A DNA stretch of 32,446 bases from Puniceicoccaceae bacterium. Lineage in GTDB: Bacteria; Verrucomicrobiota; Verrucomicrobiia; Opitutales; Opitutaceae. Position numbers and translations under genes: made by a program. Location: assembly GCA_007695295.1 (NCBI GenBank), contig REEB01000173.1, forward strand, positions 1-32,446. The letters are read 5' to 3'. The first letter of the stretch is position 1, and each line of letters opens with the position of its first letter. Of this stretch, positions 10,454-31,362 are shown in pieces. Below the pieces are notes generated by a model. The model did not search any database and was not told where the DNA came from. It worked only from the letters and a program-made list of their open reading frames with translations.

Positions 10454-10563
10454 ATCCTCCGCCCCGGAGGGGTGGCGGATCACGGCGTTTGCTAATGAGC
10501 ATGTGCGGCGCCCCTGCCGGGGCGCGAACCCATTTGCATGGCCATCTGGTGGCTGGCGCCACC
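10454..10563. repeat. Cluster of three GC-rich hairpins
   Basis: Three stem-loops follow each other: an imperfect one at 10454-10480 (ATCCTCCGCCCC against GGGGTGGCGGAT), a perfect 7-bp stem GCGCCCC/GGGGCGC at 10508-10525, and GGTGGC/GCCACC at 10548-10563. The surrounding 10337-10720 has no gene and more G/C-rich symmetric strings. It looks like a composite of dispersed palindromic repeats downstream of two convergent genes, and may also stop transcription from both sides. Confidence 0.55.
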
Positions 10564-10720
10564 GGCTAAATTCCGACGCGCCTCCGGCGCTGTGACATCC
10601 CCCGGTCGAAGCGCGGCGGCTGGGAGCGGGAGGACCGTCGTCGACCAAACCCAAACCCCAACGGGGAGCACCCAGACAGCCCGGGGCCAAACGTCGGCCC
10701 CGGCCGGTTCTCACACCGCG

Positions 10721-26641: not shown

Positions 26642-27988
26642 CTATTGCGTCAATGCATCAGCAAACCTTCTGGGTGCGGAACTGACATCCGGCCAAGACG
26701 ATGCCGGTGAAGAGGCCTTCCCCGGCAGCCGGACCGGCCGCAACAGTCGGACCAGATTCAGCAGGGTCGCCAGCATGGCCGCGGCCAGGAAGCCGAGACC
26801 GATCTGCAGCAGAACGGGCATGCTCATCCAGAACCCCAGCAGCAACAGCGGCAACACGGGCATCAAAAGCAGGAACCCCACCGGCACCAAGAAGTGATTC
26901 GCCATCGACTCGGCCTCCGGCACCTCCTCCAGGCCGATCCGATGGGCGTAGCGCATCTGCCAAACCAGAAACGGGACCACCCGATTCGCCACCCCGAGAA
27001 TGCACGGGGCCAGCACTCCGAAGCCGAACAATGCCACCAGCAGCACTTCATTCAACTCGGGTCCGTGGGCGAGCCAACCCACGCGGCCTCCGCCGAGCAG
27101 GCCGAGCAGGATCGCCAAAGGGAGCAGGCCCGCCAAGCCGAGCAAATGAATCCGCAGCGGCCAGCCGACCGCCCCCGAACGGCGCAAGACCAAGCTGACC
27201 ACCTCGGCCAGAAACAGCACCACCCCGGTCGCCAGCAGAAGCAGGGCCACGCCGGTCACGCCAGCCATCGGCAGCAGCAATGCCGGCACGAGCAGAAAGA
27301 GGCCGGCATTAACGACCAGGGTCGACCACCATCCGCAAAGACCCCCACGAGTCGCGGTGACGAGGAACATCGGCAAGAGGCGGTACGTGGCTCCGGCGAG
27401 GGTCAGGAAAAGAAAACCGATCAGCCCGGCAGTTGCGTGCAGGGAAAGAATCGAGCCGGCCCCAAGGGGCGGCATCGGCAGGTAGGTTTTCGCCAGGTAG
27501 AACCCGGCCAGACCCGCCGCCACCGCCAGCCAGAACAGCGCCGAGGCGAGGGTGATGGAAGCCGTCTGCCAGGGAGAGCGGCGGTTCAAGGTCGCCGCAA
27601 GGTTGAGCACGAAAAACAGCATGCCCAGCGCAACCGGCCAGCCCCACTGCGCGACGATAAGGTAGTCCTCCCGCCAGAAGCCCACCACCATCCCGGGCAG
27701 AGCAACGGCATGCAACACGAGGTGCATCCGGGCGAGCGTCAGGCTGCGCAGGCGGGTTTCAGCGATCAGGGGGATGAGTTGGTAGGCGGCGCCGAAGATG
27801 ATCGAAGCCACTCCGCCAAGGAAAAACAGGTGCACCAATGCCAGCAGCGCGGGTTGGTTGGCTTCTCCCGTCAACAGATCGGGACGGCCCAGCAGGACCG
27901 CCAGCACGACCGCAAAGGAAAGGAAGCCAAATGCGAAGAAGGGCAGGGTCAGGAGAGCCTGCCGCCAGAAGGTGCGGCCGGCCTTCAC
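26642..27988 (-). CDS. Heme-copper-oxidase subunit I-like / NnrS-like 12-helix membrane protein
   Basis: A 448-residue integral membrane protein with about 12 hydrophobic helices. The start is GTG at 27986-27988, overlapping the DUF2249 stop (GTGA) and preceded by GGAGG, clearly better than the in-frame upstream ATG. Histidines sit in helix contexts like those of heme-copper oxidase-type and NnrS proteins: H53 (LVHLFFLGG), H89 and H93 (RMHLVLHAV), H184 (LHATAGLIGF) and H281 (RIHLLGLAGL). GAAYQLIPLI after helix 2 is typical of HCO subunit I-like orphan proteins. It probably binds heme and takes part in NO or O2-related metabolism; catalytic competence is not shown. It is translationally coupled to the DUF2249 protein and controlled with it. 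Confidence 0.6.
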   Translation of the reverse strand: MKAGRTFWRQALLTLPFFAFGFLSFAVVLAVLLGRPDLLTGEANQPALLALVHLFFLGGVASIIFGAAYQLIPLIAETRLRSLTLARMHLVLHAVALPGMVVGFWREDYLIVAQWGWPVALGMLFFVLNLAATLNRRSPWQTASITLASALFWLAVAAGLAGFYLAKTYLPMPPLGAGSILSLHATAGLIGFLFLTLAGATYRLLPMFLVTATRGGLCGWWSTLVVNAGLFLLVPALLLPMAGVTGVALLLLATGVVLFLAEVVSLVLRRSGAVGWPLRIHLLGLAGLLPLAILLGLLGGGRVGWLAHGPELNEVLLVALFGFGVLAPCILGVANRVVPFLVWQMRYAHRIGLEEVPEAESMANHFLVPVGFLLLMPVLPLLLLGFWMSMPVLLQIGLGFLAAAMLATLLNLVRLLRPVRLPGKASSPASSWPDVSSAPRRFADALTQ

Positions 27989-28458
27989 TTCGGGTCCTCC
28001 CCACGGGTGATCATCGTTTCCCAGTAACCCTCGGGTGCCTCGCGGGAGGAGCCTTGCCAAGAGCGCTCCTCCAGGATGTCGAGCAGGTGCACCGGCCGGA
28101 AACGGGTCCAGGCGCCGAGCCGCGCTCCCGGGGGAAGCCCCGCCAGCCGCTGCAGGATCCGGCTCATCGGCTCCGGCGGAGTCAACTCGCGCAGATCGAG
28201 GATTTCCTCAGGCTCTTCCTCGCTGGAACGCTGGTAAAAGGTCACCGCCACTTCCTCAGCCCCGCGGGGCTCGATGATGTGCGCCCAGCCGCGTTCGGCC
28301 AACATCCGGTACAGTGGCGTGGGCTCGAAAGGCACCAGGAGACGAAGGCAATCTCCGGGGGCCAGCTCATTAACTTTGGCCAGGATCATGGGCAGGGGAC
28401 TGCCGCCTGAGGCCAGCACCGATCGGACGTCCAATTCAACAGGGGGTGGTAAGGTCAT
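27985..28458 (-). CDS. Protein with two tandem DUF2249 domains
   Basis: A 157-residue protein built of two copies of the TusA-like DUF2249 fold. Repeat 1 is LDVRSVLASGGSPLPMILAK with GDCLRLLVPFEPTPLYRMLAERGW. Repeat 2 is LDLRELTPPEPMSRILQRL with GARLGAWTRFRPVHLLDILEERSW. DUF2249 proteins cluster with denitrification, hemerythrin and NnrS-type genes in many bacteria; their biochemical role is unknown. Neither repeat keeps the TusA-type catalytic Cys at the start of the helix; the only Cys is in GDCLRL. The ATG at 28456-28458 has no Shine-Dalgarno, and a predicted FNR-type promoter would start transcription at this codon. It is the first gene of a two-gene operon. Confidence 0.82.
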   Translation of the reverse strand: MTLPPPVELDVRSVLASGGSPLPMILAKVNELAPGDCLRLLVPFEPTPLYRMLAERGWAHIIEPRGAEEVAVTFYQRSSEEEPEEILDLRELTPPEPMSRILQRLAGLPPGARLGAWTRFRPVHLLDILEERSWQGSSREAPEGYWETMITRGEDPK

Positions 28459-28464
28459 GACCCT

Positions 28465-28470
28465 ACCCTA
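28465..28470 (-). promoter_or_regulatory. Candidate -10 element of the DUF2249 operon
   Basis: On the minus strand TAGGGT begins exactly 22 nt after the FNR-type site at 28493-28506, the spacing of a class II FNR promoter (site centred at -41.5). It would place +1 at 28458, the A of the DUF2249 ATG, giving a leaderless transcript. The hexamer itself matches TATAAT at only three positions. Confidence 0.4.
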
Positions 28471-28492
28471 CGGTGTCGGACGGGCTTTTTCC

Positions 28493-28506
28493 TTGATTCG
28501 GATCAA
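28493..28506. promoter_or_regulatory. FNR/DNR-type operator TTGATTCGGATCAA
   Basis: A perfect TTGAT-N4-ATCAA site lies in the 69-nt gap between the divergent DUF2249 and Crp/Fnr genes. It is 34 nt from the DUF2249 start and 21 nt from the regulator start. The adjacent regulator has the E..SR recognition helix known to read TTGAT, so activation of DUF2249 and repression of itself are both plausible. Confidence 0.88.
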
Positions 28507-28527
28507 GCAGACTCGAAGAACTGTGCC

Positions 28528-29250
28528 ATGCCCCTCACCAGTCGAGATACCGGTGCATTTCGGCAGGCGGCCATCGCGGAAGCACTACGGGGCTGTCGTC
28601 TGTTTACCGACCTCGACCCGACCGCACTGGCGGAAGTCGTCGATGCCTGTGCGCTCAAGTCCCTCTCCAAGGGCGAGTACCTTTTCCGGGAAGGCGATCC
28701 CTCCGAAGGGTTCTACGTCCTGCGCCGTGGCTCAATCAACATCCACCGGATCAGCTCCGAGGGCAAGGAGCAGGTCATCTGTATCTTCCACCCGCCGGAA
28801 TCCTTTGCCGAGGTCGGCTTGGCCACGGTGGACACTTACCCGGCCAATGCCATCGCCTTGGAGAGCAGCCAGGTGGTTCTGGTCCGCAAGCACGACTTCC
28901 GCGAGCTGATCCGTCGGCGACCGGAGCTGGCCTTGCGGATGCTCGGTTCCATGAGTTTCCACCTCAAGCACCTCGTTCAGCTCATCGAGGATCTCAAATT
29001 CAAGCAGATCGAGGCCCGATTCGCGAGTTGGCTGCTCCGCCAAGCCGGGTCGCCGAGTGGCGCCACCCCCGCGGTGGTACACTTGGAAATGAGCAAAAAG
29101 ACCCTCGCCGCGCAACTCGGCGTGGCCAGCGAAACCCTTTCCCGAACCCTGGCCAAGTTTCGCGACGAGGGCCTGATCCTCGTCGAGGGCAAGGCCATCA
29201 CGTTGTTGAATCCAGCGGGCATAATGCGCTACCAGAGCCATGAGGTCTGA
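28528..29250 (+). CDS. Crp/Fnr-family transcription regulator
   Basis: A 240-residue regulator. The N-terminal cyclic-nucleotide-binding-like beta roll (LFREGDPSEGFYVLRRGSINI; ESFAEVGLATVDTYPANAIAL) leads to a long dimer helix and a winged HTH (SKKTLAAQLGVASETLSRTLAKF). The recognition helix has E202, S205 and R206, the FNR set that reads TTGAT. Only three cysteines exist (C23, C41, C85), so an FNR-type [4Fe-4S] oxygen sensor is unlikely. The E-S-R-S cAMP-binding pattern of Crp is not seen either. A Dnr/NnrR-type NO or redox sensor is the best inference from the DUF2249 and heme-copper-like neighbours. The ATG at 28528 follows the operator by 21 nt, and no strong Shine-Dalgarno is seen. Confidence 0.9.
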   Translation: MPLTSRDTGAFRQAAIAEALRGCRLFTDLDPTALAEVVDACALKSLSKGEYLFREGDPSEGFYVLRRGSINIHRISSEGKEQVICIFHPPESFAEVGLATVDTYPANAIALESSQVVLVRKHDFRELIRRRPELALRMLGSMSFHLKHLVQLIEDLKFKQIEARFASWLLRQAGSPSGATPAVVHLEMSKKTLAAQLGVASETLSRTLAKFRDEGLILVEGKAITLLNPAGIMRYQSHEV

Positions 29251-29323
29251 GAGGGAAGCGAGCAGGAAAAACAACTGCTCATCCAAGGCTGGCACTGCCG
29301 ACAAGACCGGGCGCGATCCTGTC

Positions 29324-29672
29324 GTAGCGGAAGCGCGGAGCGCTTTCGGCGGCGGCCGGGGAAGCGTAGCGGAAGCGCGGAGCGCTTTCGGTGGGTGCGG
29401 CGGCCGGGGTCGCGGGGCAGGGCCGAAGCCGCTCCGCGGCTCCGCTACGGTGGCGGCGACAGGTCTTGAAAGCGCCGGCGGCTAGGGGCGCGGGCGTAGC
29501 GGAAGCGCGGGGCGCTTTCGGCGGGTTCGACAGCCGGGGTCGCGGGGCAGGGCCGAAGCCGCTCCGCGGCTCCGCTACGGTGGCGGCGACGGGTCTTGAA
29601 TGCGGCGGCGGCCAGGGGCGGGCGTAGCGGAAGCGCGGAGCGCTTTCGGCGGGTGCGGCGGCCGGGGTCGCG
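29324..29672. repeat. Tandem 128-130-bp repeat with palindromic arms
   Basis: Each unit starts GTAGCGGAAGCGCGG. There is a short unit (29324-29365), two full units (29366-29495, 130 bp; 29496-29623, 128 bp) and a last partial one (29624-29672). The full units are highly similar. Within each, the start (GTAGCGGAAGCGCGGAGCG) is nearly the reverse complement of a later stretch ending CTCCGCGGCTCCGCTAC, so each unit can fold into a long stem. The region 29251-29747 holds no convincing gene: ORFs across it are Gly/Arg/Ala-rich artefacts of the repeat. Confidence 0.88.
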
Positions 29673-29718
29673 CGGTGGGGACTGGCCGGGACCAACCGTC
29701 CGGGACTGCTGGCGAAAT

Positions 29719-29740
29719 CCCACCGTCTCACGACGGTAGG
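29719..29740 (-). terminator. Hairpin just after the Ig-like protein gene
   Basis: ACCGTC (29722-29727) and GACGGT (29732-29737) pair around TCAC, and flanking CC/GG adds to the stem. It lies 7 nt beyond the stop at 29748 on the minus strand. Only a short T-run (ATTTC) follows, so this would be a weak or Rho-assisted terminator. Confidence 0.5.
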
Positions 29741-29747
29741 TACGAAC

Positions 29748-31362
29748 TCAGGGCAGGGTGAACAACTCGATCCGACCGATGCCGGGGCGGTTTTCCGAGT
29801 CTCGGAGTTGCACCGTGTAGGCTCCCGGTTCCAAGGTGATGAGGAGTGCCGCCTCCAGGTCGTCCCCGGGTGCAAAACCAGTCGACTCGATCAGTTCGGC
29901 CTCGGGATGATCGCGCCAGTATTCATTAAGGTCGATCCGCTCGCGATCGGCATTCCAGACCGAGAGGACCGGATCGGGAAGCGGGTTGGCCACACCGAAG
30001 GCCGCCATCGAAGGCCCGCCGCCACGGATAAGCAAACGGCGCGGACCGCCGACGTGGTCAATGACAAACCCGGCGATCATGATCTTGCTCCCGCCCTCGA
30101 CTTTGCCGCGGATGGAGAGATTGATCAGGCGCGAATTACCGGACACGCCCGCGATGCGGTCGAGGTCGAAGAGCTCGACCAGGCCGATGCCGGTTTCGTT
30201 GCCGAGATTGCGCAGATGGACGGTGTAAGGGCGGTTCGGTTCGATCGTGGCCAGTAGCGTCGCCTCGGTTTCGCGGTTGGGGGCGAAACCGCTGTCGTCG
30301 ATGAGGTCGCTGTCCGGCCCTTCCTCCCAGCGGGTGTTGCGGGCGATCTCCTGGCCATTCTGGTCGAAGAGGATGAGCGTCGGGTCGGGCAGCAGCCCGG
30401 TGAGGTTGAAATCGGCCAGGGACGGACCTTTGCCGGTGAGCAGAACGCTCCGTACCTCCGAGCCGCCGAGCACAAAACCGGCGATCATGATCTCGGATCC
30501 GAGCAGGTTCTGGCCGCGGCTGGAAAGGTTGATCAACTCCGCCGCCGGACTCACCGCAAGCGTGGCGGCCTCACTGATGGTGGTGCCGCCGGGGCCGGAG
30601 ACCTCCACCGTATATGCACCGGCTTGTCCTGGGGACACGAAGGGAATCCGGTGGCTGCTCTCAGTGGCTCCAGCGATGGGCTGACCGTTGCGAAACCACT
30701 GGAAGGTGAAAGGGCCTGTTCCCTCGGGATCAACCGTGAAAAGAGCGGTTTGTCCGGCCACCAGACTGGCGGATGCCGGCGGCGTGGGGATTAAAGGAGG
30801 CGGCGGAAGTTCGAGCGGAGCCGTGCGGAGCTGGCCGTCGGCTAGAGAACCGCGGAGGATGTCCGCCGGTTCGACGTGGGCGGCGTTCAAGGTGACGGTT
30901 CCGAGGGCGGGCAGGAGCCAGTTGTCCCGGCTGAAAATCAGCCACTCGGAGGCTTCACCCACCGGCTCGGCCTCGGGCTGGTTGAAGATCCAGACCGCCA
31001 GTCGGGCGTTGGGAGGCGTGGAGACATTCGAGAGGAGCCGCAGGGTCTCGCCGGGGCCAGCCACGGAATCGGGCTGACCGATCAGGCCGCTCCCGAGGGT
31101 GACGAAGACCTCCTCAGCTGGCTGCCTCGACCGAAGCACCTGAAATCAGCGCGTCCGGCGCCGCATCCGGCACCAGGTAGCCGATCCGGACAAGGCTGCC
31201 GACCGGCAGGAGGGTGCCGTCGCTGTCCGCAAGCAGAGGGCTGCCCTCGGTGAGATTGTTGAAGTTGACGCCGGCGGAGGCCAGCAGGCCGGGTCCGGCG
31301 GGAAGCAGGAAAGCCGCCCCCAAAGCGAAGGCGGCGAAGATGCGTCGGGGCATGGTCACCAT
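29748..31362 (-). pseudogene. Secreted Ig-like protein gene split by a +1 frameshift
   Basis: Two overlapping minus-strand frames make one protein. The first (31114-31362, 82 residues) has a signal peptide (FAAFALGAAFLLPAGPGLLASA) and a Verrucomicrobia-type start, VNFNNLTEGSPLLADSDG, ending SGASVEAAS then TGA. The second (29748-31139, 463 residues; its GTG start is probably an artefact) continues with EEVFVTLGSGL. Skipping the T of TGA would join AAS to EEV directly. The rest holds an Ig-like domain (LVAGQTALFTVDPEG; FQWFRNGQPIAGA) and two tandem repeats, each INLS-RG, then MIAGFV, GPS, and LPDP-L. These repeats are common in Verrucomicrobia surface proteins of unknown function. A sequencing error would give the same picture; the long intact second frame argues for a recent event. 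Confidence 0.7.

Follow-up and report, generated by a model that had tools for sequence, protein, structure and literature searches.

The locus examined here raises the question of which genes are controlled, and by which signal, when a CRP/FNR-family regulator gene stands divergently from an operon encoding a DUF2249 protein and an oxidase-like membrane protein. It lies in a stretch of 32,446 nucleotides (nt), contig REEB01000173.1 of the Puniceicoccaceae bacterium assembly GCA_007695295.1, the whole of which is called the window below. An initial annotation of this DNA had proposed a DNR-type regulator with the DUF2249–membrane protein operon as its target and a link to nitric oxide (NO), forming a candidate stand-alone NO or redox defence or respiration unit. 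Our analysis supports the regulator, its target and the link to NO: the three genes probably belong to a DNR-like NO regulon, as its regulator and one of its target operons, with products that handle NO. The regulon, which is of a known kind, is well supported in silico, and we infer NO as its signal and the biochemical role of its products from sequence. The features, by window position, are as follows.

28528 to 29250, plus strand: CRP/FNR-family regulator, DNR-like, 240 amino acids (aa), with E202-T-L-S-R206 and three non-conserved Cys, assigned by its Pfam domains and by DNR as its best PDB sequence match.
28493 to 28506, strand-neutral: operator TTGATTCGGATCAA, a perfect FNR/DNR-type box, found by exact-site scan.
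28465 to 28470, minus strand: putative -10 element TAGGGT, 22 nt downstream of the operator and 6 nt before the DUF2249 start codon.
27985 to 28458, minus strand: double DUF2249 protein, 157 aa, with a predicted TusA-like fold and without the TusA catalytic Cys.
26642 to 27988, minus strand: 12-helix membrane protein with a modelled heme-copper-oxidase (HCO) fold and a likely GTG start, upstream of which the frame stays open as far as a TTG at 28060.

The regulator gene and the DUF2249 gene diverge across a 69-bp gap containing one perfect TTGAT-N4-ATCAA site, as had been claimed, and this is the sole exact match of the site in the window. Read on the minus strand, the site, 22 nt, TAGGGT, 6 nt and the DUF2249 ATG follow in this order, and the membrane protein gene lies downstream on the same strand. 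Its GTG at 27988 overlaps the DUF2249 stop codon as GTGA, which suggests coupled translation, and this GTG is, judged by position, likelier as the start than the TTG from which the open frame runs. In the class II arrangement of FNR-type activators, the site is centred 41.5 bp upstream of the transcription start. The window site looks, by its sequence, like such a class II promoter facing the DUF2249 operon, and with the site centred at 41.5 bp the transcription start would fall at the ATG of the DUF2249 gene and, for the nnrS promoter described below, at the GTG of nnrS. On the regulator side of the site, TAnnnT was not found at 22 nt, so that activation of the regulator gene from this site is not supported; its autorepression from there is possible.

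The same promoter arrangement was found elsewhere in the 4.6-Mb genome. There are seven exact sites, compared with one for a reversed control, and the exact combination of the site, 22 nt and TAnnnT occurs three times (control, 0), preceding the DUF2249–membrane protein operon, nnrS and the iron-sulfur repair gene ric (ytfE). The distance from TAnnnT to the start codon is 6 nt for the DUF2249 operon, 6 nt for nnrS and 2 nt for ric, in which a second ATG lies 8 nt past TAnnnT. When one mismatch was allowed, the pattern gained two places, one of which, on contig C167, precedes an operon for an eNOR-type NO reductase. The other, on contig C253, is within a 330-aa open frame and is probably due to chance. 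The other four perfect sites (contigs C28, C264, C274 and C42), none with TAnnnT at 22 nt, were also taken as chance; in a simple listing of open reading frames, the first three fall within open frames of 90 aa or more, and 22 bp separate the C42 site from such a frame. As a result, the idea of a stand-alone unit had to be rejected, since nnrS and ric share the promoter exactly and the eNOR-type operon shares it with one mismatch. Furthermore, the regulator matches only itself in this genome at E ≤ 1e-5 and is therefore the best candidate reader of all these boxes. As a separate observation, a MOSC-domain gene (L038 7151-7927, contig C177) diverges from ric across its box, and its own side is without TAnnnT at 22 nt.

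Denitrification reductases had been described as apparently absent nearby. This held on the window contig, where no COX1/NorB, NirK or NosZ match was found and NirS was not searched for, but not beyond it, as other contigs carry the eNOR-type operon and a NirK-like gene, along with NnrS (identified by PF05940) and RIC (identified by TIGR03652, above its cut-off); of the 42 loci of relatives introduced below, 9 have nosZ and 7 nirK in the fetched stretch. PF00115 gave three strong matches and one weak partial match in the genome, and the strong ones can be classed by sequence as two cbb3-like proteins, named by eye, and one of eNOR type. In the operon on C167 (L041), subunit I has Gln at the cross-link Tyr position in an alignment to ba3 oxidase, a feature that serves as the eNOR criterion in the available text of PMC8756737, and, in our own reading of that alignment, six His in the canonical places. 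Subunit II, with a CuA-type cupredoxin, scores 27.7 for COX2 in Pfam against a cut-off of 22, and its NCBIfam CoxB match is below cut-off. The operon is thus a predicted eNOR-type NO reductase. Its first gene (L041 2152-3642) encodes a further membrane protein, oxidase-like by eye, which may be a conserved eNOR partner; its look-alikes in loci L086 and L103 follow an exact regulon promoter. The NirK-like protein on contig C75 (L046 9604-11472) scores 124 bits, short of the curated cut-off of 296. It is long, being extended at its N-terminus and ending in a cupredoxin-like part, and L033, L036, L061 and L064 have homologues of it next to the module, that in L033 likewise being below cut-off. 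A genome-wide search for further sites and for norB, nirK and nosZ, of the kind suggested in the initial annotation, yielded the seven exact sites, the eNOR-type operon and the NirK-like gene; NosZ was not found in the genome, where the only match was a short CuA-domain-like one on C167. No further copy of DUF2249 was found elsewhere in the genome, and a near-site scan around the partial HCO-like gene of contig C157 gave none with fewer than two mismatches.

Relatives of the module were collected by the membrane protein. Of 387 genomes from the phylum, 11 matched it, its own included, as did 33 loci of named records, of which 30 are from Verrucomicrobiota or a subgroup, one from a 'bacterium' and two from Ktedonobacterales. 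After removal of the duplicates L060 (= L029) and L073 (= L028), the set comprised 42 loci besides the window, with the near-alike L051, L057 and L063 all kept; the fetched stretches, to which the counts for these loci refer, differ in length, and some stop at contig ends. They contain 26 perfect sites in 581 kb, whereas 19 permuted half-sites gave no more than 1 each, and a site near the start of the DUF2249, membrane protein or regulator gene is present in 12 of the 42 loci, compared with 0 for the permuted half-sites. TAnnnT was found at exactly 22 nt from 16 of 58 oriented perfect sites, which include those of the window and two loci of its own genome, and from at most 2 at any other spacing. 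With up to one mismatch, and with the window excluded, the corresponding value in the 42 loci was 33 of 146 oriented sites, with at most 3 at other spacings. These 33 promoters stand before genes for DUF2249 (7), cupredoxin (6), cupin (6), SCO (4), NirK (2), and RIC, HemN, CtaB and cytochrome c (1 each), while 4 have no assigned gene. The downstream genes were named by similarity to family-identified genes, except that SCO, CtaB, cupin, cupredoxin, cytochrome c and DUF59 were named by eye. Judged by sequence, many of them appear to belong to nitrogen-oxide metabolism or to be probable accessories of it. The cupin gene is immediately upstream of DUF2249 in L031 and L053. In a comparison of 22 genomes, 25 exact promoters were found in 7 of the 11 genomes with the membrane protein and none in 11 same-family genomes without it (control, 0). 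Apart from these counts, a truncated-hemoglobin-like gene, named by eye, was seen behind an exact regulon promoter in a relative (G091, L106/L107).

The DUF2249 protein was confirmed to be a fused double-domain protein, with two Pfam stretches in its PF10006 match (2.4e-29, 101 bits against a cut-off of 29.5). One half of its model (pLDDT 90.9, pTM 0.59) was aligned over 74-77 columns by Foldseek to the SirA-like 3hz7 and to TusA 3lvj, with TM values of 0.81 and 0.76 by target length, and strands and helices follow each other in the same order in the other half. The catalytic Cys of TusA is in the first loop, in a CPxP motif. Cys37 is the only Cys of the DUF2249 protein, and no Cys occupies the TusA catalytic position in the family alignment. 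The model thus points to a fold that, in one half, is common with TusA/SirA sulfurtransferases but is without the catalytic cysteine. In the relatives, DUF2249 is present in at least 33 of the 42 loci (the gene caller missed the L036 copy), DUF59 in 18, SCO in 8 and NnrS in 3. An 831-aa open frame in L061, in which the membrane protein runs into NirK, was taken as an assembly frameshift and not as a fusion. On plasmids, the search returned a single match, weak and partial (Aliarcobacter butzleri; 30% over 36% of the query).

The DUF59 and SCO genes of the relatives, together with the TusA-like carrier fold and the SCO-, CtaB- and HemN-like genes behind the same promoter (only HemN being family-tested), would also suit a maturation unit that inserts heme, copper or Fe-S cofactors into denitrification enzymes and does not meet NO itself. 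We consider this possible but rather unlikely for the DUF2249–membrane protein operon, as the sulfur-carrier Cys is absent from DUF2249, no DUF59 gene was seen beside the window operon, and the module lies beside NirK also where there is no nosZ in the fetched stretch (L033, L036).

The regulator, which has the Pfam domains cNMP_binding and HTH_Crp_2, finds its best PDB sequence match in DNR (3dkw, 2.6e-27). Among 15 homologues, the window protein included, the E-x-x-S-R recognition helix is present in all 15, and none of its only cysteines (23, 41 and 85) is invariant, so that the annotated recognition residues and the three cysteines were both confirmed, and identity with an Fe-S FNR, which would call for a four-Cys [4Fe-4S] set, was rejected. 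His145 is invariant in 15/15, which is suggestive, as a hint from sequence, of heme binding or an NO response by the regulator; DNR of Pseudomonas senses NO by heme. A regulator that answers anoxia or redox state instead, and drives general anaerobic genes, could be argued from the HemN, SCO-like and cytochrome genes that follow the promoter in relatives and from the box, which is also the FNR consensus (PMC1274295, in its available text). Such a signal is unlikely in view of the lack of a conserved Fe-S cysteine set and of the genomic targets, since the three exact promoters and one of the two with one mismatch precede NO-related genes or the DUF2249 operon. The same text gives CTTGATnnnnATCAAG as the DNR motif in Proteobacteria and names nir, nor, nos, nnrS and hemN as genes under DNR (PMC1274295). 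The regulon described here thus resembles the DNR regulons of Pseudomonas and beta-proteobacteria in its box, its CRP/FNR regulator and targets of this kind, but differs from them in belonging to an Opitutaceae-related (Verrucomicrobiota) genome, in having an eNOR-type and a DUF2249–HCO-fold operon as targets, and in start codons only a few bases past the -10 element.

DUF2249 proteins are linked to nitrate respiration in Thermus and Haloferax, with a function given as unknown or proposed to be that of a sensor, and are expressed under DnrT or in denitrifying cells, according to the available texts of PMC6282519 and PMC11218638. Among them, DrpA and DrpB of Thermus need the master regulator DnrT for their expression, modulate DnrT in turn and are proposed nitrate sensors (PMC6282519, available text). 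By analogy, the DUF2249–membrane protein pair might be a sensor feeding back on the regulator, which it adjoins in the window. This seems improbable, because the available text of PMC6282519 mentions no oxidase-like or HCO-fold membrane partner for DrpA/DrpB, and because a close regulator gene is in the fetched stretch of just 14 of the 42 loci. DrpB differs from the window protein in its make-up, which is DUF1858 plus two DUF2249.

The membrane protein is the unusual part of the system, being an HCO-fold protein with displaced histidines. It has no match in Pfam (E ≤ 1), NCBIfam or the PDB sequences. Its AlphaFold2 model, built from 12 sequences (pLDDT 83.9, pTM 0.84), has twelve membrane-length helices, two of them broken, and aligns in VIA-align to CcoN (8smr; Z 33.7, rmsd 3.1 over 392) and to NorB of cNOR (3o0r; Z 30.9, rmsd 2.9 over 378), in agreement with Foldseek. 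On the basis of this model, the protein has the HCO fold. Two relatives gave weak COX1 matches below cut-off (3.5e-5 and 0.0012), both between the first repeat and profile positions 305-400 of 436, approximately transmembrane helices (TM) 9-10, as we infer the helix names. The family profile repeats itself at offsets of 133 and 266 residues, indicating three homologous four-helix units; offset 133 is best for TM2 and TM6, and 266 is second best for TM2, weakly (17.1, 10.6 and 2.6 bits). The twelve helices and the HCO-like character claimed initially thus stood, while "His-rich" was overstated, as the protein has nine His, of which four are conserved among 43 homologues (His77 in 39, His113 in 41, His117 in 39 and His208 in 41; the 831-aa frame of L061 is included in the count). 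These are located in TM2, TM3 and TM6, and the 43 homologues have no conserved His in TM7 or TM10, where, besides TM2 and TM6, the His ligands of oxidases and NO reductases would be, so that a canonical binuclear centre is not expected. At the matching HxH positions of the repeats, TM2 has x-x-His77, TM6 has His208-x-His210 and TM10 has none; residue 210 is His in 34 of 43 homologues and Thr in the window protein. The loop before TM2 has His at positions 67, 69 and 71 in 28, 22 and 16 of 43, which the window protein lacks, and the relatives beside the long NirK (L033, L036, L061, L064) are without His77, two of them also without His208. The TM7 His pair of oxidases sits near the helix end. A rotated full binuclear centre, in which His113/117 would take the part of the TM7 pair, was dropped as a reading, since these two residues lie near the start of TM3. 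The simplest reading of these sequences would be one heme between TM2 and TM6, and the protein is probably a single-heme NO-tolerance or accessory protein and not a reductase, which also makes a respiration unit unlikely as far as the membrane protein itself is concerned. That it is a new type of NO reductase or oxidase, as its fold close to CcoN and cNOR and its four conserved His might suggest, is very improbable, given the lack of conserved His in TM7 or TM10 and the six canonical His already present in the genome's own eNOR-type subunit I.

The HCO-homology (HCOH) families of Pei and colleagues (2014), which include NnrS, are said to have twelve helices, three repeats, few conserved His and a link to denitrification, and reportedly consist of three homologous four-helix units with two conserved His for one heme. 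The membrane protein is like these families in its twelve helices, three repeats, few conserved His and link to denitrification, but differs from them in the placing of its conserved His in TM2, TM3 and TM6, in the HxH motif in TM6 of most members, and in the lack of a Pfam or NCBIfam match of the window protein. The HCOH work is cited in the available text of PMC11218638. NnrS itself is similar to the membrane protein as an HCO-like membrane protein behind the same promoter, with weak profile similarity, but the window protein has no PF05940 match, and NnrS conserves a different pattern, comprising His73 (28/29), His325 (27/29) and His347 (26/29); residues were not mapped to NnrS because of the poor C-terminal alignment. 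Among 33 genomes with NnrS, the own genome is the only member of its family, and no NnrS match was found in six same-family genomes with the membrane protein (G010, G018, G088, G091, G099, G143). A bolder proposal, which we regard as distinctly unlikely, is that a heme occupies a pore that is empty in known oxidases, with the low-spin ligand pair shifted by one repeat from TM10/TM2 to TM2 (His77)/TM6 (His208), and that the protein forms with its TusA-like DUF2249 partner an uncharacterised NO-handling system able to replace NnrS.

Several findings weigh against an NO-handling operon under this regulator. The promoter is directly before DUF2249 in only 7 of the 33 cases from the 42 loci, and only 5 of the 42 loci pass with gene starts from a simple gene caller, so that most relatives do not show the promoter immediately ahead of the operon. 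Only those 14 loci include, within what was fetched, a close homologue of the regulator (E < 1e-40). An exact promoter match is lacking from 4 of the 11 genomes that carry the membrane protein, and the 11 that do not carry it were taken as the first listed and not at random. For the NirK-like gene of the own genome, a scan of its 19-kb stretch gave no site closer than two mismatches. In addition, the hhalign similarity of the membrane protein family to NnrS is modest (probability 88, E 2.9e-6), and it is from the repeat positions that His77 would face His208.

In the DNR-like NO regulon that we favour, the dimeric regulator would sense NO by heme, as in Pseudomonas DNR, bind at about -41.5 and recruit polymerase as a class II activator, and the resulting mRNAs would be leaderless or near-leaderless. 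The eNOR would reduce NO, RIC would repair iron centres and NnrS would protect, and the DUF2249–membrane protein pair would do a related NO job. The membrane protein, whose conserved His only in TM2, TM3 and TM6 argue for one heme and against an oxidase or NO reductase, would most likely bind this heme via His77 and His208, at matching repeat positions, and would serve, with the TusA-like DUF2249 protein as its partner, in NO binding, in tolerance or as an accessory.

Two further features of the window were recorded. Downstream of the regulator gene, positions 29323-29748 contain G+C-rich repeats resembling REP-like palindromes, with a 127-nt unit present three times (one copy only 64% alike), a 39-nt unit present four times and inverted arms of 28 nt. 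An Acido-Lenti-1 RNA match in Rfam lies at 10546-10591 on the plus strand (41.4 against a gathering score of 37).

This analysis provides a testable genome-wide promoter rule for the NO response in Opitutaceae and their relatives in Verrucomicrobiota. It would also tie to NO handling a domain of unknown function together with an HCO-fold family whose window member is missed by Pfam and NCBIfam, and it marks the residues to mutate.

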